From Jiangella aurantiaca (GTDB lineage: Bacteria > Actinomycetota > Actinomycetes > Jiangellales > Jiangellaceae): 64,000 nucleotides of DNA. The stretch is from positions 62,001 to 126,000 of the forward strand of contig NZ_SMLB01000006.1 in the NCBI RefSeq assembly GCF_004349105.1, given 5' to 3'. Positions 38,958 to 49,110 of this stretch are shown in pieces. Under the pieces are notes generated by a model, which worked only from the letters and a program-made list of their open reading frames with translations, ran no database searches and was not told the DNA's origin. Each line of letters starts with the position of its first letter. Within the stretch, counting starts at the first letter, position 1. Both the position numbers and the translations under genes were made by a program.

Positions 38958-40618
38958 TGCGGGTGCTGGCGCAGCTGGCGATGGTGATGAACCTCGACAA
39001 GTGCATCGGGTGCCACACCTGCTCGGTCACCTGCAAGCAGGCGTGGACCAATCGGGCCGGCACGGAGTACGTCTGGTTCAACAACGTCGAGACCCGGCCG
39101 GGCCAGGGCTACCCCCGACGCTACGAGGACCAGGACCGCTGGCGCGGCGGCTGGACGCTGAACAAGCGGGGCAACCTCGAGCTGCGCACCGGTGGGCGGC
39201 TGCGGCGGCTGCTCGGCATCTTCGCCAGCCCGGTGCAGCCGGAGCTGGCCGACTACTACGAGCCGTGGACCTACGACTACCGCACGCTCACCGAGGCCCC
39301 GCTGGGCGACGACTTCCCGGTCGCGCGGCCGAAGTCGCTGATCACCGGCGAGGACACCAAGGTCACGTGGTCGGCGAACTGGGACGACAACCTCGGCGGC
39401 ACCAGCCAGCTCGGCCACCTCGACCCCGTCGTCGAGAAGGTGCGGCGCGAGTCGGAGGAGAAGATCCGCTTCGAGTTCGAGCGGACGTTCATGTTCTACC
39501 TGCCGCGCATCTGCGAGCACTGCCTGAACCCGTCGTGTATGGCCTCGTGCCCGTCCGGCGCCATCTACAAGCGCAGCGAGGACGGCATTGTGCTGGTCGA
39601 CCAGGACCGCTGCCGCGGCTGGCGGCAGTGCGTCACCGGCTGCCCGTACAAGAAGATCTACTTCAACCACCGCTCCGGCAAGGCGGAGAAGTGCACGTTC
39701 TGCTACCCGCGGGTCGAGGTCGGGCTGCCGACGGTGTGCTCGGAGACCTGCGTGGGGCGGCTGCGCTACCTCGGCCTGTTCCTGTACGACGCCGACGCCG
39801 TCACCGCGGCCGCGTCGACGCCCGATCCGCAGGACCTCTACGAGGCGCAGCTGGACCTCATGCTCGACCCGTCGGACCCCGCGGTGGTCGCGGCGGCGCG
39901 GGCGGACGGGATCCCGGACGACTGGATCGACGCGGCCCGGCGCTCGCCCGTCTATGCGCTGGCCAAGACGTACCGCGTCGCGCTGCCGCTGCACCCGGAG
40001 TATCGGACGATGCCGATGGTCTGGTACGTGCCGCCACTGTCGCCGGTGGTCGACCTGCTGTCGTCGCAGGGCCACGACGCCGAGGACCGCGCGACGCTGT
40101 TCGGCGCGATCGAGGCGCTGCGGATCCCGGTCGAGTACCTCGCCGAGCTGTTCACCGCCGGCCGGACGTCGACGGTGACGGCGGTGCTGCGCAAGCTCGC
40201 CGCCATGCGGGCCTACATGCGCGACGTGACGCTCGGCCGCGACCCCGACCCGTCCATCCCGGCGTCGGTCGGGATGACCGAGGAGTCGCTGTACGAGATG
40301 TACCGGCTGATGGCGATCGCCAAGTACGACGAGCGCTACGTCATCCCGACCGCTCACGCCGAGCAGGCACACGACCTCGAGGAGATCGGCTGTGCGCTCG
40401 ACGTCGAGGATGGCCCCGGCATGTACGAGTCCGGCCCGTTCGGCGAGGCCAGCGGGCGGCCGGTGCCGGTCGCCGTCGAGACGTTCCACGCATTGCGGCA
40501 GCGGCAGACCAGCGACGCGCCGCCGGGCGACCTGCACGGCAGGGTCAACCTGCTCAACTGGGACGGCAACGGCCGGCCGGAGGGCCTGTTTCCGCCGCCG
40601 AAGGACGCTGCGTCGTGA
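38957..40618 (+). CDS. narH: respiratory nitrate reductase, beta (iron-sulfur) subunit
   Basis: 553 aa, with ATG 38957 overlapping the narG stop by one base. It has four Cys clusters: CIGCHTCSVTC, CEHCLNPSCMASCP, CRGWRQCVTGCP (Trp in place of one Cys marks the [3Fe-4S] site) and CTFCYPRVEVGLPTVCSETC. It carries electrons from NarI haems to NarG. Confidence 0.96.
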   Translation: MRVLAQLAMVMNLDKCIGCHTCSVTCKQAWTNRAGTEYVWFNNVETRPGQGYPRRYEDQDRWRGGWTLNKRGNLELRTGGRLRRLLGIFASPVQPELADYYEPWTYDYRTLTEAPLGDDFPVARPKSLITGEDTKVTWSANWDDNLGGTSQLGHLDPVVEKVRRESEEKIRFEFERTFMFYLPRICEHCLNPSCMASCPSGAIYKRSEDGIVLVDQDRCRGWRQCVTGCPYKKIYFNHRSGKAEKCTFCYPRVEVGLPTVCSETCVGRLRYLGLFLYDADAVTAAASTPDPQDLYEAQLDLMLDPSDPAVVAAARADGIPDDWIDAARRSPVYALAKTYRVALPLHPEYRTMPMVWYVPPLSPVVDLLSSQGHDAEDRATLFGAIEALRIPVEYLAELFTAGRTSTVTAVLRKLAAMRAYMRDVTLGRDPDPSIPASVGMTEESLYEMYRLMAIAKYDERYVIPTAHAEQAHDLEEIGCALDVEDGPGMYESGPFGEASGRPVPVAVETFHALRQRQTSDAPPGDLHGRVNLLNWDGNGRPEGLFPPPKDAAS

Positions 40619-41256
40619 TCGGCCGCCGACGGGACCGCGCCGCCGACCATCGGGTCGTGCACCAGGTCGCCTCGTGGTGCCTGGACTACCCGGAAGCCAC
40701 GCTGAGGAAGCGGCTCCCGCTTCTGGGCCGGGCTTTGGCCGAGCAGCCGCAGTCGGACGCCGTCGCGCACCTCGGGGTGCTGGTCGAGCACCTGGCCGGG
40801 CGGCCGCTCGCGGACCTGCAGCGCGACTACGTCGACGTCTTCGACCTGAGCCGGGACCGGGCGCTGCACCTGTCGTACTGGACCGACGGCGACACCCGGC
40901 GGCGCGGCGAGGTGCTGGCTCGGTTCAAGGCCGCCTACCGGGCCAGCGGGTTCGTCGTCGACCTGCACGGGGAACTGCCCGACCACCTGCCGACCGTGCT
41001 GGAGTTCGCCGCGATCGCCGACCCCGCCGCCGGCGCCGCGCTGCTCCAGGAGTACCGGCCGAGCCTCGAGCTGCTCCGGTTCGCGCTGCTCGACCTCGGC
41101 ACGCCGTACGCCGACGGGGTCGCCGCCGTCTGCGCGACGTTGCCGGGGGAGTCGCCGCCGGACCGCGCCGCCGTCCACGCCCAGGCCGGTCCGCCGCCGG
41201 TCGAGACCGTCGGTCTGGAGACGGTGCAGCTGGAGCCGTACAGGAGCCGGCCGTGA
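40615..41256 (+). CDS. narJ: nitrate reductase assembly chaperone
   Basis: 213 aa, GTG start (GTGA overlap with narH). It is a helical TorD/NarJ-type chaperone with VASWCLDYPEATLRKRLPLL and YVDVFDLSRDRALHLSYWTDGDTRRRG, the conserved NarJ core. It assists cofactor insertion into NarG and is not part of the final enzyme. Confidence 0.93.
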   Translation: MIGRRRDRAADHRVVHQVASWCLDYPEATLRKRLPLLGRALAEQPQSDAVAHLGVLVEHLAGRPLADLQRDYVDVFDLSRDRALHLSYWTDGDTRRRGEVLARFKAAYRASGFVVDLHGELPDHLPTVLEFAAIADPAAGAALLQEYRPSLELLRFALLDLGTPYADGVAAVCATLPGESPPDRAAVHAQAGPPPVETVGLETVQLEPYRSRP

Positions 41257-41999
41257 ACACCGTCCTGTGGGGTGTGCTGCCGTACCTCATGGTGGTCGTG
41301 CTGGTCGCCGGGTCCATCTGGCGCTACCGGTACGACAAGTTCGGCTGGACGACGCGGTCGTCGCAGCTCTACGAGTCGAGGCTGCTGCGCATCGGGTCGC
41401 CGCTGTTCCATTTCGGCATCCTGGTCGTGATCATCGGGCACGTCGGCGGGCTGGTGGTCCCGGAGTCGTGGACCGAGGCGGCAGGCGTCAGCGAGGGGCT
41501 GTACCACTTCAACGCGCTGCTGTTCGGCGGGATCGCCGGCGTCTGCACGCTGGCCGGCATCGCGATCCTGATCTACCGACGACGACGGACCGGGCCGGTC
41601 TTCATGGCCACCACCCGCAACGACAAGGCGATGTACGTCGTACTTGGAGCCGCGATCGCGCTGGGCCTGTGGACGACGCTGGTCAGCGTCGGCGCCGGGT
41701 CGGAGGCGCATGACTACCGTGAGTCGGTGTCGCCGTGGTTCCGGTCGCTGTTCGTGCTGCAGCCCGACGTCGACTCGATGGCCGCCGCGCCGGTGGAGTT
41801 CCACGTCCACACGCTGGTCGGCATGCTGCTGTTCGCGATCTGGCCGTTCACCCGGCTGGTGCACGCGTTCACCGCGCCCGTCCACTACCTGTTCCGGCCG
41901 TACATCGTCTACCGCAGCCGCGACGCCGGGCGGCGGCCGACCGCCGGTCCGCGGCGCCGCGGCTGGGAGCCCGTCGGCAGCCGCGACCGGGACCGCTGA
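41253..41999 (+). CDS. narI: respiratory nitrate reductase, gamma (cytochrome b) subunit
   Basis: 248 aa, GTG start (GTGA overlap). It has five membrane helices with haem-ligand His in SPLFHFGILVVIIGHVGGL and in EFHVHTLVGMLLFAIWPFTRLVHAF. It anchors NarGH and oxidises quinol at the outer face. Confidence 0.95.
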   Translation: MNTVLWGVLPYLMVVVLVAGSIWRYRYDKFGWTTRSSQLYESRLLRIGSPLFHFGILVVIIGHVGGLVVPESWTEAAGVSEGLYHFNALLFGGIAGVCTLAGIAILIYRRRRTGPVFMATTRNDKAMYVVLGAAIALGLWTTLVSVGAGSEAHDYRESVSPWFRSLFVLQPDVDSMAAAPVEFHVHTLVGMLLFAIWPFTRLVHAFTAPVHYLFRPYIVYRSRDAGRRPTAGPRRRGWEPVGSRDRDR

Positions 42000-42010
42000 G
42001 GGAGGCGCCG

Positions 42011-43210
42011 ATGACCACCGACGACGTCCGGCGGGGCCAGACCCGCAACCTGGTGCTGGCGACCGTCGCGTTCGCCGTCAGCTTCTGGGCGTGGAACATG
42101 GTGGCGCCGCTCGGTGTGCGCTACACCGGCGAGCTCGACCTATCGGCCGGGCAGAAGTCGCTGCTGGTGGCGACGCCCGTGCTGGTGGGGTCGGTCGGCC
42201 GGATCCTGGCCGGCGCGCTCACCGACCGGGTCGGCGGCCGGCTGATGTTCCCCGTTCTCATGGTGGCGTCGGCGCCGTTCGTGCTGCTCGTGGCGGCGGC
42301 CGGCGAGGCGGAGTCGTACGCGCTACTGCTGGTGTTCGGGTTCTTCCTCGGCCTCGCCGGCACGACGTTCGCCGTCGGCATCCCGTTCGTCAACGCCTGG
42401 TACGAGCAGTCGCGGCGGGGCTTCGCGACCGGCGTGTTCGGCGCCGGGATGGGCGGGACGGCGTTGTCAGCGTTCTTCACGCCACGGTTCGTCGACTGGT
42501 TCGGCTACGTCGCGACGCACGTCATCGTGGCGGCCGCGCTGGTGGCGATGGCGGCGGTGTGCTGGGCGCTCATGCGGGACGCGCCGACGTGGGCGCCGAA
42601 CGCCGCGCCCGTGGTGCCGAAGCTGGCGGCGGCGGTCCGGCTGCCGGTGACGTGGCAGATGTCGTTCCTGTACGCGGTCGCGTTCGGCGGGTTCGTCGCG
42701 TTCTCGACCTACCTGCCGACCTACCTCAATGACATCTACGACTTCGACCTGACGGCGGCCGGGACCCGTACCGCCGGCTTCGCGCTGGCCGCCGTCGTCG
42801 CGCGGCCGGTCGGCGGAGTGCTGTCCGACCGTATCGGCCCGCGGTCGGTCGTCGCGATCTCGCTGGCCGGCACCGTCGTGCTGGCGATCGTCGTCGCGTT
42901 CCAGCCGCCGGTCGAGGTGCCGGCCGGGATCGCGTTCGTCGCGCTCGCGTTCTTCCTCGGCCTCGGCACCGGCGGCGTGTTCGCCTGGGTCGCCACGCTG
43001 GCGCCGCCGGAGCGGGTCGGCACCGTCACCGGCGTCGTCGGCGCGGCGGGCGGGCTCGGCGGGTTCTTCCCGCCACTGGTCATGGGCGCCACGTACGAGC
43101 TGCTGCTGGCCGGCTACGGGGTGGGGCTGACGCTGCTGGCGATCACGGCCGCCGGTGCGCTGGCGTTCACGCTGCTCGGGGTGCGGGCGCGGACCCCGGC
43201 GCGGTCCTGA
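42011..43210 (+). CDS. narK: NarK-type MFS nitrate/nitrite transporter
   Basis: 399 aa, starting at ATG 42011 behind GAGGGAGG, 11 bp after narI. It has twelve predicted helices with nitrate-signature-like glycine-rich segments (FATGVFGAGMGGTALSAFF and VTGVVGAAGGLGGFFPPLVMGATYE). Last gene of the nar operon, exchanging nitrate and nitrite. Confidence 0.92.
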   Translation: MTTDDVRRGQTRNLVLATVAFAVSFWAWNMVAPLGVRYTGELDLSAGQKSLLVATPVLVGSVGRILAGALTDRVGGRLMFPVLMVASAPFVLLVAAAGEAESYALLLVFGFFLGLAGTTFAVGIPFVNAWYEQSRRGFATGVFGAGMGGTALSAFFTPRFVDWFGYVATHVIVAAALVAMAAVCWALMRDAPTWAPNAAPVVPKLAAAVRLPVTWQMSFLYAVAFGGFVAFSTYLPTYLNDIYDFDLTAAGTRTAGFALAAVVARPVGGVLSDRIGPRSVVAISLAGTVVLAIVVAFQPPVEVPAGIAFVALAFFLGLGTGGVFAWVATLAPPERVGTVTGVVGAAGGLGGFFPPLVMGATYELLLAGYGVGLTLLAITAAGALAFTLLGVRARTPARS

Positions 43211-43216
43211 GCGCGG

Positions 43217-43252
43217 GACGGCGCCGCCCGGTTCGTCGTGGGCGGCGCCGTC
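43217..43252 (+). terminator. terminator of the nar operon
   Basis: A perfect 13-bp stem (43217-43229 with 43240-43252) with a 10-nt loop, 7 bp after the narK stop and followed by GTCTTCCC. Confidence 0.8.
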
Positions 43253-43393
43253 GTCTTCCCTAGGGGGGCCGGGCAGACCGGCGATGAGAGGGGGCCGGAG
43301 GCCTCCTCGACATCGTCGGTGCAAGGCGTCGAGCTAGGGCGACCGTGGCTGCGGCCATGCCCGGGCCGACGACGCTCGAGGGCCTGGGAGAGC

Positions 43394-43966
43394 TCAGCAG
43401 TACGGCGGAGCGGAGCCGACGTTCGTCACGTAACGGGCCGACACCCACTGGCCGCCGCCGTCGCCGGTCAGCTGGTACCAGCGCCGGTTGCCGTCGATGC
43501 TCTGCGAGTCGACCTTGCAGACGATCGACAGGGTCGCGCCGCGCGGGGCGGAGCTGACCTTGGTGTTGGACGTGTGCGGGCCACTGCGCACGGCGAGCGA
43601 CGTCGACGACGACACCCGGCCGGTGTACTCGTGGCCGTCGCCACAGAAGCGCGGCGCGGCGCCGATGTTGGCGACGTAGCGGGCACTCACCCAGCGGCCG
43701 TTCGCCAGCTTGTACCAGAGGCTGTTCCCGCTGACCGTCGGGCCGTACACCTTGCACTGGATGGTGATGGTGGCGCCCTTGGCGTAAGAGCCGACCTTCG
43801 GGGCGTACGAGGTGGGCGCGCTGCGGACGTTCACGCCCGTGGTGACGCGGCCCTTGTAGGTCGTGGCGGCCTCAGCGGGCGTAGTGGTGGCGAGCAGGGC
43901 GAGCGGAACGATGGTGGCCGTGGCGAGCGCGATCGCCGCCCGCCGGAGCCGGTGCCGGATGATCAT
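43394..43966 (-). CDS. secreted protein with two bacterial SH3 domains
   Basis: 190 aa from ATG 43966, preceded by TCAGGAGGTCC. The signal peptide has basic RHRLRR, a hydrophobic core and cleavage after AEA (~33). Two similar SH3b units follow, roughly residues 37-105 and 115-190. Each has GVNVRSAP or SLAVRSGP, a Cys and WVSARYV. Paired Cys suggest disulfides. Such proteins bind cell wall or act as small secreted adaptors; no catalytic domain is present. Confidence 0.82.
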   Translation of the reverse strand: MIIRHRLRRAAIALATATIVPLALLATTTPAEAATTYKGRVTTGVNVRSAPTSYAPKVGSYAKGATITIQCKVYGPTVSGNSLWYKLANGRWVSARYVANIGAAPRFCGDGHEYTGRVSSSTSLAVRSGPHTSNTKVSSAPRGATLSIVCKVDSQSIDGNRRWYQLTGDGGGQWVSARYVTNVGSAPPYC

Positions 43967-44152
43967 GGTGGACCTCCTGACGTCGCCGCACGCGGCCCCC
44001 GTGGCCGGGTATCGGCTCTCACCATCAATCACTCCTCAGCGTGGCGATCGGTTGCACGCGGCGGGAAGAATCTGCGTGATTTGCCTTGTCGCGTCGGCGC
44101 AGGTCAGTGGACGTACCGTTACTTAGTGCGACAAGGCGGTCACGGACGCGGC

Positions 44153-44213
44153 GTTGATCATGGAGAAATCGGGCTTCCCAGCCGCTGGGAAGCCCGATTT
44201 CTCCATGATCAAC
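44153..44213. repeat. perfect 61-bp palindrome (30-bp arms, 1-nt centre)
   Basis: Arms 44153-44182 and 44184-44213 are exact reverse complements beginning GTTGATCATGGAG. It lies in the gap between the SH3-protein gene's 5' side and the 3' end of an ECF sigma gene. It is too long and too perfect for an ordinary terminator. It may be a REP/MITE-type mobile palindrome that also terminates transcription. Confidence 0.9.
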
Positions 44214-44250
44214 TCGGGTGGCCGGTCGCGTGGACGGTGAGCCGGCGCGG

Positions 44251-45276
44251 TCAGGGTGGGTCGGCGGGTAGGCCGAGAAGGGGCAGCAGTTCGGGGTCGA
44301 TGAACGAGCTGAGGTGCGTGACCAGCCCGTCCCGGATGCTCAGCACATTCACCGCGCTCAGCCGGAACATGCCGTCCGAAGGATCGCGCCGGTAGCAGGC
44401 GAACCCGGGCTGGCCGTTGAACCAGGCCGGCCGCAGCTTCCACGGCGTCTCGAACACCCGCTCGGCGAGGAACCGGCCGACATCGGCGCGGCCGTCGAAC
44501 CAGGCGGGCAGCGGCGGCATGGTGAACCGGGCGTCCTCGGCCAGCAGTGCGAGCAGCGCCGGCACGTCGGCCCGCTCCCAGGCGGCGACGAACGCGTCGA
44601 CAAGCTCCCGCCGGCCCTCCGCTCCGAGCGCGGACAGCTCGTCACGCTGGCTGACGGCGGGCAGGCGGTCGCCGACGGAGGCACGGGCGCGCTGCAGCGC
44701 GCTGTTCACCGACGCGGGCGTGGTGTCGAGCAGGTCGGCCACCTCCGCCGCGGAGTACCGCAGCACGTCGCGCAGGATCAGGACGGCCCGCTGCGTCGCC
44801 GGCAGGTGCTGCAGCGCCGCGACGAACGCCAGCTCGACGCCCTCGCGCTCGACGTACGCCTCGGCGGGATCCCACCCGCCGGCCGGAACGTCGCCGGCGG
44901 TCGGGAAGGGCTCCAGCCAGACCGGTCCGAGCACCGGCTCGCCCAGGTCTGAGGTGTCGCGGCGGGCCGGGCCGTGGTCAGGGGAGACCAGCCGTCGTGG
45001 CCGTTTCGAGTGCAGCCGCAGACTCGCGTGCGTCGCGATGCGGTACAGCCAGGTGCGCAGCGAGCTGCGGCCGGCGAACCCGCCCAGCCCGCGCCACGCG
45101 CTGAGCAGCGACTCCTGCACGGCGTCCTCGGCGTCCTGCACGGAGCCGAGCATCCGGTAGCAGTGCGCCGTCAGCTCCCGCCGGTACGGCCCGACCAGCT
45201 GGTCGAACGCCGTCGAGTCGCCGTCGCGGGCGGCCGCCAGCAGTCCGGCCTCGTCCAGCCGGTCCGGCACCTCCAT
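44251..45276 (-). CDS. ECF sigma factor with C-terminal SnoaL-like domain
   Basis: 341 aa from ATG 45276. Sigma region 2 is YRRELTAHCYRMLGSVQDAEDAVQESLLSAWRGL, and region 4 is LPATQRAVLILRDVLRYSAAEVADLLDTTPASVNSALQRAR. The last ~120 residues are SnoaL-like with TMPPLPAWFDGRADV. In such sigma factors the extra domain regulates activity in place of an anti-sigma factor. It is related in layout to 61865-62839. Confidence 0.88.
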   Translation of the reverse strand: MEVPDRLDEAGLLAAARDGDSTAFDQLVGPYRRELTAHCYRMLGSVQDAEDAVQESLLSAWRGLGGFAGRSSLRTWLYRIATHASLRLHSKRPRRLVSPDHGPARRDTSDLGEPVLGPVWLEPFPTAGDVPAGGWDPAEAYVEREGVELAFVAALQHLPATQRAVLILRDVLRYSAAEVADLLDTTPASVNSALQRARASVGDRLPAVSQRDELSALGAEGRRELVDAFVAAWERADVPALLALLAEDARFTMPPLPAWFDGRADVGRFLAERVFETPWKLRPAWFNGQPGFACYRRDPSDGMFRLSAVNVLSIRDGLVTHLSSFIDPELLPLLGLPADPP

Positions 45277-45582
45277 GCTCCGGAGGGTAGCGGGACGGCA
45301 GGCGGCGTCGCAGTGCTGGCCGGGCCGGACGGCGGAGGCGTGACCGTGGTGACCGGCGCCGCACAGGCGGTCACTCGTGTGCTGCCAACGATCGCTGAGC
45401 CCGCAGCCGCCCAGCGTCGGGAGCATCGTCACGGTCACGGGACCTCGCATGGGTCGGCAACCCTCCGCCGATCCGGCCCGTGCCCCTATGACGCGCGCCG
45501 GTGCCGTCCGGTTCACACGATCGCTTGACATTTTGTGGCGCAGCCCATACTTTCCTGTATAGTTAATTAACTGGAGGGGAAA
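45277..45582. promoter_or_regulatory. intergenic promoter region of arsR-SRPBCC operon
   Basis: A clear -35 (TTGACA, 45525-45530) is followed at 17 bp by TACTTT (45548-45553). A 12-bp palindrome, AGTTAATTAACT (45561-45572), follows at the expected transcription start, and GGAGGGG lies just before the ATG. The AT-rich palindrome is the likely ArsR operator. Upstream of 45520 I see nothing specific. Confidence 0.7.
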
Positions 45583-45924
45583 ATGACGGTCGACGCCGAT
45601 CCGCTCACCGCCACGTTCGCCGCGCTCGCCGATCCGACCCGCCGCGCCATCCTGGCCCGGCTGACCAGGGGCGAGGCCACCGTCGGCCAGCTGGCGGAGC
45701 CGTTCGACGTGTCGCTGCCGGCCATCTCCAAGCACGTGAAGGTGCTGCAGAAGGCCGGTTTGATCGAGCAGACGCGACGGGCGCAGTGGCGGTCCTGCCG
45801 GTTGCGGCCGGAGCCGCTGCGCGACCTCGCCACGTGGATGGAGCAGTACCGCGACTTCTTGGGCGACAGCCTCGACCGGCTGGACCAGTACCTGACGGAC
45901 CTGCAGAAGGGAGATCGGTCATGA
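45583..45924 (+). CDS. ArsR-family transcriptional regulator
   Basis: 113 aa, starting at ATG 45583. Winged HTH: FAALADPTRRAILARLTRGEATVGQLAEPFDVSLPAISKHVKVLQKAGLIEQTR. No metal-binding Cys is present, so it is of the non-metal type that pairs with SRPBCC proteins. It overlaps the next gene (ATGA) and probably represses its own operon through 45561-45572. Confidence 0.92.
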   Translation: MTVDADPLTATFAALADPTRRAILARLTRGEATVGQLAEPFDVSLPAISKHVKVLQKAGLIEQTRRAQWRSCRLRPEPLRDLATWMEQYRDFLGDSLDRLDQYLTDLQKGDRS

Positions 45925-46448
45925 CCCGACGCGAGCTGGGCGACGCCGCCACCACCGTCGTCGCCGAGGGATCGGAACTGCTCATCGAGCGCGTGTTCGC
46001 CGCGCCGCGCGAGCTGGTCTGGGCCGCCATGACGACGGCGGAGCATCTGGCGCAGTGGATCGGCCCGCACGGCACCACCACCGAGGTCGTCGAGCTGGAC
46101 GTCCGGCCCGGCGGCCGGTGGAAGTGGATCAACCGGTACGACGGCGGCGAGATCGCGTTCCTGGGGGAGTTCCTCGAGGTCGACCCGCCGAAACGGCTGG
46201 TGCGGACGACGGCGCCGGACATGGAGCCGGCCGGCGGGCCGCCCGCCGTCGAGACCATCACGTTCGAGGAGGTCGACGGCGGCACCCGGGTGTACTGGCT
46301 GACGAGGTTCCCGTCGCCGGAGGTGCTCGACTACGCCGTCGACTCCGGCATGATCAAGGGCATCCTCGAGCAGTTCGACCGGCTGGCGGGGCTGCTGGCT
46401 CCGGGCAGTTGGTCGCCGGCCGCGAGGTCTGACGTCAGTCCCCGATGA
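45921..46448 (+). CDS. SRPBCC (AHSA1-like) domain protein
   Basis: 175 aa, starting at ATG 45921. START/Bet v 1 fold: ERVFAAPRELVWAAMTTAEHLAQWIGPHG, LDVRPGGRWKW, FLGEFLEVDPPKRLVRT. It probably binds a hydrophobic ligand. Standard partner of the preceding ArsR type. Its 3' end overlaps the convergent MFS gene by 14 bp. Confidence 0.9.
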   Translation: MTRRELGDAATTVVAEGSELLIERVFAAPRELVWAAMTTAEHLAQWIGPHGTTTEVVELDVRPGGRWKWINRYDGGEIAFLGEFLEVDPPKRLVRTTAPDMEPAGGPPAVETITFEEVDGGTRVYWLTRFPSPEVLDYAVDSGMIKGILEQFDRLAGLLAPGSWSPAARSDVSPR

Positions 46449-47673
46449 ATTGACGGCGCCGCAGCGCGCGGGGGAGCGTGGCGGCGACGGCGACGGTGGC
46501 CAGCGTGCCGCCCGCTCCGGCGACGACCAACGTCACCGGCGCCGACGTCGCGTCCAGCAGCAGGCCGCCGGCCACGTACGACAGGCCGGCGGACAGGCCG
46601 ATCGCGCCGTAGAGGTTGCCGAACACCCGGCCGAGCATCGCGTCCGGCACCAGCCGGGGCAGCAGCGTGTTGGTCGCGACGTCCATCGCGGCGATGCCGA
46701 GGCCGCGCACCGTCTGCAGCACGAACGCCGCCGCGACCGCCCACGCCAGCCCCGTCAGCAGGTTCCCGACGCTGCTGACGGCGAAGCCGGCGACCAGCAG
46801 CCACAGCATCGATGCCTGCGCCGACCATCGGGCGAGCAGTGCGTAGCCGGCGAACAGCCCGATGCCGACGGCGGCCAGCAGCGCCGCGCTCGCGGAGTCG
46901 CCGGCGGCGAAGGTGTCCTTGGACAGCACGACCAGCGCGACGTCGTCGATGCCGTTGAACGCCACGACCGCGCAGAAGCCGAGCCCGATGATCCGCAGCG
47001 CCGGCTCCCGCCACAGGTGGGCCACACCGTCGCGGGCGCCGCGCAGCAGGCCGCCGGCGGGCACCTCGGAACCGGCTGACGGCGACGGTGGCAGTGCCGG
47101 CAACCGGACCAGCAGCAGCGCCGACAGCAGGAACGTCGCCGCGTCGACCAGCAGCACACCACGCACGCCGACGAGCGGGAACAGCGCCGCCGCGACCAGC
47201 GGGCCGGCCGCCTCGCCGCCGTTCGTCGCCAGCCCGAGTGCGGAGTTCGCGGCCGCCTGATCGCGCGGCGACACGAGCGTCGCGACCGCGGCCCGCGACG
47301 CCGGCAGGAAGACGTGCCCCGCCACCGCCCGCACGCCGACCAGCGCCAGCAACAGCGGCAACGGCGGCAGCGACAGTGCGATCGCGGCCAGCAGCCCGGC
47401 CTGCACCAGCTCGCAGCCGATCATCACCCGGCGCCGGTCCCACCGGTCGCTCACCGCGCCGGCCAGCGGGCTGAGCAGTGCCGGCGCGAGGTCGCCGACG
47501 AGCAGGAGCAGCGCGACGGCGAGCGCCTGGCCCGCGGTATCCGCGACGTGCAGCATCAGCGCGACCAGGCTGAGCGAGTCGCCGAGGAAGGAGATCGTGC
47601 GCGCGGCGAACAGCGACCGGAACGCCGGGTCGCGCCGCAGCGGGCTCCCGGCGTCCATTCGCGTCACGACCAT
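46435..47673 (-). CDS. MFS transporter (MFS_3/enterobactin-exporter-like)
   Basis: 412 aa; ATG 47673 (an alternative Met lies five codons later). It has twelve hydrophobic helices, with FAARTISFLGDSLSLVALMLHVAD at the N-terminus and DRWDRRRVMIGCE in loop 2-3. Probably a drug or small-molecule exporter. Confidence 0.85.
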   Translation of the reverse strand: MVVTRMDAGSPLRRDPAFRSLFAARTISFLGDSLSLVALMLHVADTAGQALAVALLLLVGDLAPALLSPLAGAVSDRWDRRRVMIGCELVQAGLLAAIALSLPPLPLLLALVGVRAVAGHVFLPASRAAVATLVSPRDQAAANSALGLATNGGEAAGPLVAAALFPLVGVRGVLLVDAATFLLSALLLVRLPALPPSPSAGSEVPAGGLLRGARDGVAHLWREPALRIIGLGFCAVVAFNGIDDVALVVLSKDTFAAGDSASAALLAAVGIGLFAGYALLARWSAQASMLWLLVAGFAVSSVGNLLTGLAWAVAAAFVLQTVRGLGIAAMDVATNTLLPRLVPDAMLGRVFGNLYGAIGLSAGLSYVAGGLLLDATSAPVTLVVAGAGGTLATVAVAATLPRALRRRQFIGD

Positions 47674-47709
47674 GAGGATGGTCCATCGCGCGACGCCCGC
47701 TCAAGGCGG

Positions 47710-49110
47710 TTACCGGCGGCGGGCGAAACCGACCAGGGTGGCGACCAGACCGAGCACGGCAAGGACGGCGACGAGCGCGAACGCGGTGTGGAAGCCGTCG
47801 AGACCGGATCCGGCGACGAGCACGGCCGACACCGTCGCGACGCCCGCCGCGCCGCCGATCTCGCGCATGGTCTCGACCAGACCGGACGCCAGCCCGGACG
47901 CCGCCCGCGACACGCCGGACAGCGCGCCGATCTGCACCGCCGGCCCGCAGAGCCCGAAGCCGACACCGGCCAGCAGGAACGCCGGCAGCACGTCGGTCGC
48001 ATAGGTGGCGTCCGCGGGCACCCGCGCCAACCAGAGCGCGCCGACGGTGAGCAGCGACAGGCCGATGACCAGCGGCGCCCGCACGCCGGCCCGCGCGACC
48101 AGCCGCTCACCGGCCATGGCCGCGACGACGATGGTGACCGTCGTGGCCAGCCAGGCCAGCCCGGTCGTCGCCGGCGAATAGCCCAGGACCTGCTGCATCA
48201 ACAGCGATCCGATGAAGATGAACGCCAGCAGCGCGCCGAACGCCAGGAACCCGGTGATGTTCGCGGCGACGAGCGGCCGGTTCCGCAGCGTCGACGGCGG
48301 CACGAGCGGGTCGGCGCTCCGGCGCTCGATCTGGACGAACGCCGCCAGCAGCGCGGCGGCGGCCGCGAACAGCGCCAGCGTCGACCCGGCCAGCCAGCCG
48401 TGGCCGGCGGCGTGGTGCAGCGCGTAGACGAACAGCAGCAGGGCGCCGGTCACCGTGGCCGCGCCGGCGACGTCGAGCCGGCCGGTACGCTCGCCGGCCC
48501 GGTCGGTGGTGAGGAACACCGTGGCCAGCGCGATGAGTACCACCCCGACCGGGACGTTGAGCAGGAACGCCCAGCGCCAGCCCGGGCCGGCGGTCAGCAG
48601 GCCGCTCAGCACCACGCCGAGCGCCCCGGCCGCGCCGTCCACGGCACCGACCAGCGCGAGCGCGCGGTGCCGGTCGCGTCCCTCGGGGAACGTGACGGCC
48701 AACAGCGAGAGGGCGGCCGGCACAGTGAGCGCGGCGCCGAGCCCTTGCGCGCCGCGAGCCGCGATCAGCAGGCCGGCGCCGTGGGCGGCGCCGGCAGCCA
48801 GCGACGCCCCGGCGAACACGGCGAGTCCGGCGACGAGGACCCGCCGGCGGCCCAGCCGGTCCGCCAGCCGGCCGCCGAGCAGCAGGAAGCCGCCGAGCAG
48901 CAGGCCGTATGCGACGACGACCCACTGCAGGGTGCCGTAGCCGGCGCCGAGGTCGCGCTGGATGGACGGCAGCGCCACGTTCACGATGGCGGTGTCCAGA
49001 CCCACCATCGCCGTGGCGGCGCAGGTCAGCGCGAGTACGAGCGCCGGCCTGCTCCGCCGGGTGGTCGCGGTGTCGGTGGAGGTCCTGGGCAGGGTCTCGG
49101 TGTGCGACAT
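47710..49110 (-). CDS. MFS transporter, DHA2 (14-helix) drug exporter family
   Basis: 466 aa, with ATG 49110 preceded by GAAGGAACG. Fourteen-helix architecture with motif A GGRLADRLGRRRVLVAG and motif C-like GAVDGAAGALGVVLSGLLTAGPGWRWAFLLNVPVG. Predicted proton-driven export of toxic compounds. It lies 36 bp upstream of the other MFS gene and may be co-transcribed with it. Confidence 0.88.
   Translation of the reverse strand: MSHTETLPRTSTDTATTRRSRPALVLALTCAATAMVGLDTAIVNVALPSIQRDLGAGYGTLQWVVVAYGLLLGGFLLLGGRLADRLGRRRVLVAGLAVFAGASLAAGAAHGAGLLIAARGAQGLGAALTVPAALSLLAVTFPEGRDRHRALALVGAVDGAAGALGVVLSGLLTAGPGWRWAFLLNVPVGVVLIALATVFLTTDRAGERTGRLDVAGAATVTGALLLFVYALHHAAGHGWLAGSTLALFAAAAALLAAFVQIERRSADPLVPPSTLRNRPLVAANITGFLAFGALLAFIFIGSLLMQQVLGYSPATTGLAWLATTVTIVVAAMAGERLVARAGVRAPLVIGLSLLTVGALWLARVPADATYATDVLPAFLLAGVGFGLCGPAVQIGALSGVSRAASGLASGLVETMREIGGAAGVATVSAVLVAGSGLDGFHTAFALVAVLAVLGLVATLVGFARRR

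Follow-up and report, generated by a model that had tools for sequence, protein, structure and literature searches.

A perfect 61-bp palindrome of Jiangella aurantiaca belongs to a genus-restricted repeat family and is probably a solo terminal palindrome from a mobile unit encoding a nuclease

Among the mobile palindromic repeats of bacteria, the best understood are the REP/REPIN sequences with their RAYT (TnpA_REP) partners, in which short dispersed palindromes lie mostly in intergenic DNA near 3' ends, the partner gene is bracketed by the same palindromes and a short conserved GTAG or GGAG stands beside the foot of the stem. Pairs of insertion sequences and MITEs combine a coding unit carrying inverted terminal repeats with non-coding relatives, and the EDxHD homing endonuclease I-Bth0305I is known for its nuclease fold with conserved acidic and histidine residues. 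Two further repeats deserve mention. SPRITE of Streptococcus pneumoniae is AT-rich and terminator-like, contains a long U-rich tract and is located near 3' ends (PMC3049150). The Rickettsia palindromic elements, of about 150 bp, often lie within genes and have been inserted in frame into unrelated protein genes (PMC10969869).

Here we analyse a palindrome of Jiangella aurantiaca that resembles each of these systems in part. It was found in a 64-kb window, by which we mean the whole stretch of 64,000 nucleotides that was studied (contig NZ_SMLB01000006.1, positions 62,001 to 126,000), and the coordinates below are those of the window. The Jiangella family shares with REP/RAYT the short dispersed palindromes near 3' ends and a gene bracketed by them, but its putative partner is a nuclease of PD-(D/E)XK/EDxHD type and its element is a symmetric palindrome of about 61 bp with conserved sequence inside the stem. 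A REP-associated transposase, which the initial annotation had suggested, did not appear: the Y1 model PF01797 was without a match in 12 Jiangella genomes, while the control genomes were positive. GTAG or GGAG was not seen at the stem foot of the Jiangella copies, GGAG lying within the paired arm, and membership in the REP/RAYT group fails. Like SPRITE, the family consists of terminator-like dispersed repeats near gene 3' ends, but it is GC-rich, symmetric, devoid of a U tract and linked to a nuclease. Protein genes can receive the element in frame here as in Rickettsia, although the Jiangella element measures 61 bp and is mostly intergenic, and the two are likened by features, no relation of sequence being expected. 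In contrast to I-Bth0305I, with which it shares the fold and the conserved acidic and histidine residues, the Jiangella nuclease is encoded by a free-standing gene between palindromes, is fused to an AbiEi-like region and lies in neither an intron nor an intein. IS/MITE pairs differ as well, since no known transposase is present and the terminal repeat is a full palindrome that is itself the non-coding form. The features of the locus are as follows.

44153 to 44213 (no strand): standalone member of the family, a perfect 61-bp palindrome (inverted-repeat scan, genome search)
44153 to 44167 (+ strand): left outer arm, GTTGATCATGGAGAA, near-invariant in the family and a putative nuclease recognition site (alignment, pair table)
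44199 to 44213 (- strand): right outer arm, the 15-mer GTTGATCATGGAGAA again (alignment, pair table)
44168 to 44198 (no strand): inner stem and centre, subtype ATCGGGCTTCCC, differing among copies with pairing mostly retained
44251 to 45276 (- strand): gene of a sigma-70-family sigma factor with a SnoaL_2 tail (Sigma70_r2, r4_2), its stop 37 bp from the palindrome
43394 to 43966 (- strand): SH3-domain gene, downstream of the palindrome, with 186 bp between the two

The arms at 44153-44182 and 44184-44213 are 30 nt long, 100% complementary and separated by 1 nt, exactly as initially described (a perfect 61-bp palindrome with 30-bp arms and a single central base). No other inverted repeat of the window is nearly as good, the runner-up having 73% over 33 nt, and the window has two occurrences of the 12-mer TTGATCATGGAG, each within the palindrome (shuffle mean 0.09). 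Folded as RNA, the region gives -74.6 kcal/mol (z = -8.6). Full 30/30 pairing is a property of the window copy alone among the 76 copies found in the genome, the next best having 28 and 27 pairs.

The palindrome is a copy of a dispersed repeat family restricted to Jiangella. An arm search with the 13-mer GTTGATCATGGAG gave 72 matches in the 6.62-Mb genome and none with the reversed control, and a covariance model found at least 76 copies, a lower bound with 54 standalone and 22 MITE-borne copies among the matches listed. The suspicion of a mobile palindromic repeat family was thus borne out; a unique palindrome coinciding with transcript termination only, the outcome that the initial annotation had set against it, is not what was found, as the family is multicopy. 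Exact two-arm copies are present in 9 of 12 Jiangella genomes and in 0 of 28 genomes outside the genus, the exact two-arm pattern was met in Jiangella alone across 84,980 species, and the viral contigs searched held no exact two-arm match. Each Jiangella genome has between 1 and 107 single-arm matches, against 0 to 2 for the order's other genera, and copy number differs about 100-fold among Jiangella species. Alignment of the copies revealed a near-invariant outer 15 bp and a variable inner stem, the total length being exactly 61 bp in 50 of the 54 standalone copies among the matches listed. At inner pairs 16-22 and 25 pairing exceeds that of column shuffles, with G-C to C-G swaps; this covariation is supportive and not decisive because much of it reflects two subtypes inherited by descent. 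The consensus of the flanks of standalone copies is weak, and flanks vary over the full copy set. Rfam matches to microRNA and sRNA models, all below gathering scores, were taken as chance fits to a perfect hairpin.

Standalone copies and those carried by a MITE differ in their placement. Among the matches listed, none of the 54 standalone copies lies inside a gene, while random placements in the window fall within a gene in 93% of cases; the median distance to a stop codon is 37 bp, with 44 of 51 copies at 100 bp or less, and 20 sites are convergent against 2 divergent. The same 3'-end preference is visible in 46 copies from other species, 29 of the 37 with an adjoining 3' end lying within 100 bp of it. 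Gene calls came from an in-house codon-usage script, and single cases may be wrong. The other 22 copies (subfamily C, among the matches listed) travel inside a repeat of 386-512 bp, a MITE, and are without this preference, 7 of the 22 being divergent and the median distance to the nearest 3' end reaching 338 bp. Target duplications of 7-8 bp are legible at several MITE copies and not at standalone ones. The MITE ends read TGTTRGCCGCC...GGCGGCTAACA (loci L092-L098, L110, L112, L144, L153 and other G000 loci). Sharing of flanks was judged by strict blastn, permissive settings being found to overstate it.

At ten element-bearing 3' ends of this genome the element was present in 0 of 96 orthologous flanks from 11 species; many of these flanks are bare, and in several the position is taken by unrelated long palindromes. 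Such other palindromes were noted at L196/L202, L197, L200, L230, L239, L277 and L280, one example from the relatives being CTCGGGGGTGTGTCTGACGG TTTTT CCGTCAGACACACCCCCGAG.

At the window site, the sigma-factor stop 37 bp away puts the palindrome in a 3'-end position. The SH3 leader in 9 of 11 relatives has another hairpin, GGCCGCTCCGCC-loop-GGCGGAGCGGCC, at the position occupied here by the window copy; this copy replaces that hairpin, after which the subsequent sequence GTGACCGCCTTGTCGCAC resumes, and G002 has the same sigma-SH3 order with the other hairpin retained. The arrangement fits the exchange of one predicted transcript-end structure for another. A stable GC-rich hairpin is found at a gene 3' end here, as in intrinsic terminators. 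No U tract follows it, so that a classical intrinsic terminator is not established at the window site, and a terminator scan of 40000-48000, which is of limited value for actinobacteria, returned nothing. The terminator role predicted for the window copy is nevertheless likely. Three side observations concern the same neighbourhood. The hairpin GGCCGCTCCGCC AGTTGGGGGGCAAG GGCGGAGCGGCC is conserved in nine relatives, loop included, despite a differing upstream neighbour (L180-L187, L190), and may belong to an unannotated small RNA. The sigma factor at 44251-45276 is accessory, with close matches beside the SH3 gene in some Jiangella species only. Upstream of the SH3/sigma locus, most Jiangella share a strongly conserved segment of about 100 nt (45339-45440, minus strand; single-copy in this genome), which is without an Rfam match and could encode a small peptide (MLPTLGGCGLSDRWQ...LCGAGHHGH) or represent a non-coding RNA.

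The family has also inserted into genes, such copies being a minority. In three species (G005, G008 and G011) an element lies in frame within the variable linker of tilS, 13 codons ahead of a conserved motif that is the same in each, and is translated as VDHGE...LHD(Q/R)Q; the linker of other Jiangella species is shorter or different. Two further genes (L046, L300) have copies inserted in frame as well, translated in the same frame as in tilS. Between the tilS copies of G005 and G008, identity is complete over the outer 30 bases, amounts to 17 of the 31 inner ones and is about 85% in the downstream flank. Since the arms are constant even within coding tilS, termination is unlikely to be the reason for their conservation there. 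The tilS linker is hypervariable in the genus, from 16 to about 190 codons (L292-L299), and four species have another in-frame insert in it, GQTPPGPGG(A/T)(P/Q)PYG.

At some loci two palindromes stand about 1 kb apart and enclose one gene of about 300 aa. The C-terminal part of its product matches REase_MTES_1575 (PF18741) and DUF559 (PF04480), and the N-terminal part matches AbiEi models (PADLOC, E 6e-10, one member). A search of the genus gave a close clade of 12 genes with at least 67% identity, of which 10 have the palindrome on both sides and 2 on one side, one of the latter at a contig end; by our estimate from 76 copies and several thousand genes, chance would place a palindrome beside a gene at about 1% per side. 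The unit of palindrome, gene and palindrome measures 1.07-1.10 kb in 9 of 10 cases, the two palindromes of a unit, compared as inverted copies, are as a rule the more similar to each other (identity up to 0.97), and the units occupy several distinct sites in different species. The nearest unit palindrome to the window copy brackets a nuclease gene in the same genome and is identical to it at 56 of 61 positions. The near-perfect symmetry of the window copy fits a young or constrained one, in line with the recent origin or selection that had been proposed for it.

The AlphaFold model of the nuclease has a mean pLDDT of 94. Its best structural matches in the PDB are Rv2827c (1zel), a match along most of the chain, and the homing-endonuclease domain of I-Bth0305I (3r3p_B; TM 0.76 by target), TnsA being a weaker one; a search of the PDB by sequence gave no match. 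Across 40 sequences E193, D226 and D253 never vary and H243 hardly does, a pattern consistent with the EDxHD signature of I-Bth0305I, the residues presumably corresponding one to one. Viral matches are mostly DUF559 and very-short-patch-repair proteins. Phages gave no homologue of the nuclease at E 1e-10, and plasmids yielded one partial homologue.

Enzyme and palindrome are matched clade by clade. A second Jiangella nuclease clade, with 41-46% identity to the first and separated from it in the tree with full support, is bracketed on both sides by another palindrome, GTTGATCTTGGAGT...ACTCCAAGATCAAC, at 6 loci. This second palindrome has about 72 bp with the centre often AAATGTCCGATAGAT (L328-L332, L335; L229, L232, L201), and its family too occurs as solo copies after genes. 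A profile search detected the nuclease family in 56 of 89 sampled genomes of the class (actinobacterial). When the arms had to agree by an exact 9-mer, matched palindromes flanked 14 of the 16 Jiangella loci whose flanks are complete and 8 of 25 others; the same test was positive at 0 of 135 control genes and for 4 of 650 mismatched pairs of flanks. A tolerant test gave 13 of 26 non-Jiangella homologues against 0 of 81 controls, about half of these 26 homologues having no matched pair within 300 bp. The arms differ by clade, for instance CACGAAAGCGCAGTTGCGTACG, CCCGAGTGTGTAGTTG, CTTGACGCTTGT, GTAACGCCACGGCG and GTTGATCATCGG, and amount to about ten arm sequences.

In our view, the palindrome at 44153-44213 probably corresponds to the palindromic terminus of a mobile unit encoding a nuclease and stands here as a solo copy; the complete unit would consist of a palindrome, the gene of about 300 aa and a second palindrome. 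That the nuclease spreads the palindrome we infer from the sequences compared here. The N-terminal region, similar to AbiEi and Rv2827c, would bind the conserved 15-bp arms, the constant spacing of which within 61 bp would set the geometry and position a dimer; the C-terminal domain of the EDxHD/Vsr homing-endonuclease type would nick or cut at the palindrome, and repair or copying would then carry either the entire unit or just the palindrome to new sites. Surviving copies would be those in harmless places, either directly behind stop codons or in frame within flexible linkers of proteins, and behind stop codons the long hairpin could act as the end of a transcript. The chief difficulty is G008, the genome with the most palindromes in the genus (107 single-arm matches), in which no close-clade nuclease was found; loss of the gene or the action of another enzyme must be assumed.

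Three other explanations have to be weighed against this one. If the palindromes were plain bidirectional terminators, the hairpin would be kept for ending the flanking transcripts and the nuclease gene would use palindromes as insulators. The placement of the copies listed (a median of 37 bp after stops, with 20 convergent and 2 divergent sites of 54) agrees with this, as do the great stability of the hairpin and the other hairpins that relatives have at the same places. Termination, however, needs no shared 15-bp sequence, the in-frame copies in tilS and two other genes retain the arms, most orthologous 3' ends are without any such hairpin, there is no U tract, and mispairs reveal no RNA strand bias (46 G-U and 40 A-C), all of which makes this account quite improbable.

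Operator sites are unlikely too. The AbiEi-like N-terminal region of the enzyme and its structural match to Rv2827c would suit an autorepressor that binds palindromes at its own gene, with passive spread through MITEs or recombination, and 22 of the copies listed do travel in a MITE whose target duplications measure 7-8 bp. Against it stand the 54 standalone copies listed outside the MITE, a palindrome at both gene ends, which exceeds what an operator needs, and a nuclease signature kept intact. Movement of REP-like elements by a Y1 (RAYT) transposase, since lost or too divergent for detection, would account for short dispersed intergenic palindromes of uneven copy number; such an origin is strongly disfavoured and in our view very improbable, given PF01797 in 0 of the 12 Jiangella genomes and the fact that the bracketed gene encodes a different, well-conserved enzyme.

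Taken more broadly, the data suggest an undescribed kind of mobile palindrome with a partner enzyme across actinobacteria; no text in the literature that we searched, outside which such work may exist, ties DUF559 or MTES_1575 to palindromes. We give about even chances to a distinct, Actinomycetes-wide class of mobile elements, in which an AbiEi-like/homing-endonuclease-like enzyme would recognise a clade-specific palindrome of ~45-65 bp bracketing its own gene and would spread solo copies to 3' ends, there to be used as terminators. If true, this would be a partnership of the REP/RAYT type that arose independently from a different enzyme, an unrelated nuclease family being the one paired with palindromes, and should the nuclease be shown to move them, the elements would form a class of their own. 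A function that can be tested would then be at hand for a large group of proteins so far annotated just as DUF559 or AbiEi-like, and the natural series of enzymes and sites, with about ten arm sequences, would serve for studying the evolution of DNA recognition. For the GC-rich genomes of actinobacteria, it would offer a source of the long hairpins that stand behind genes.
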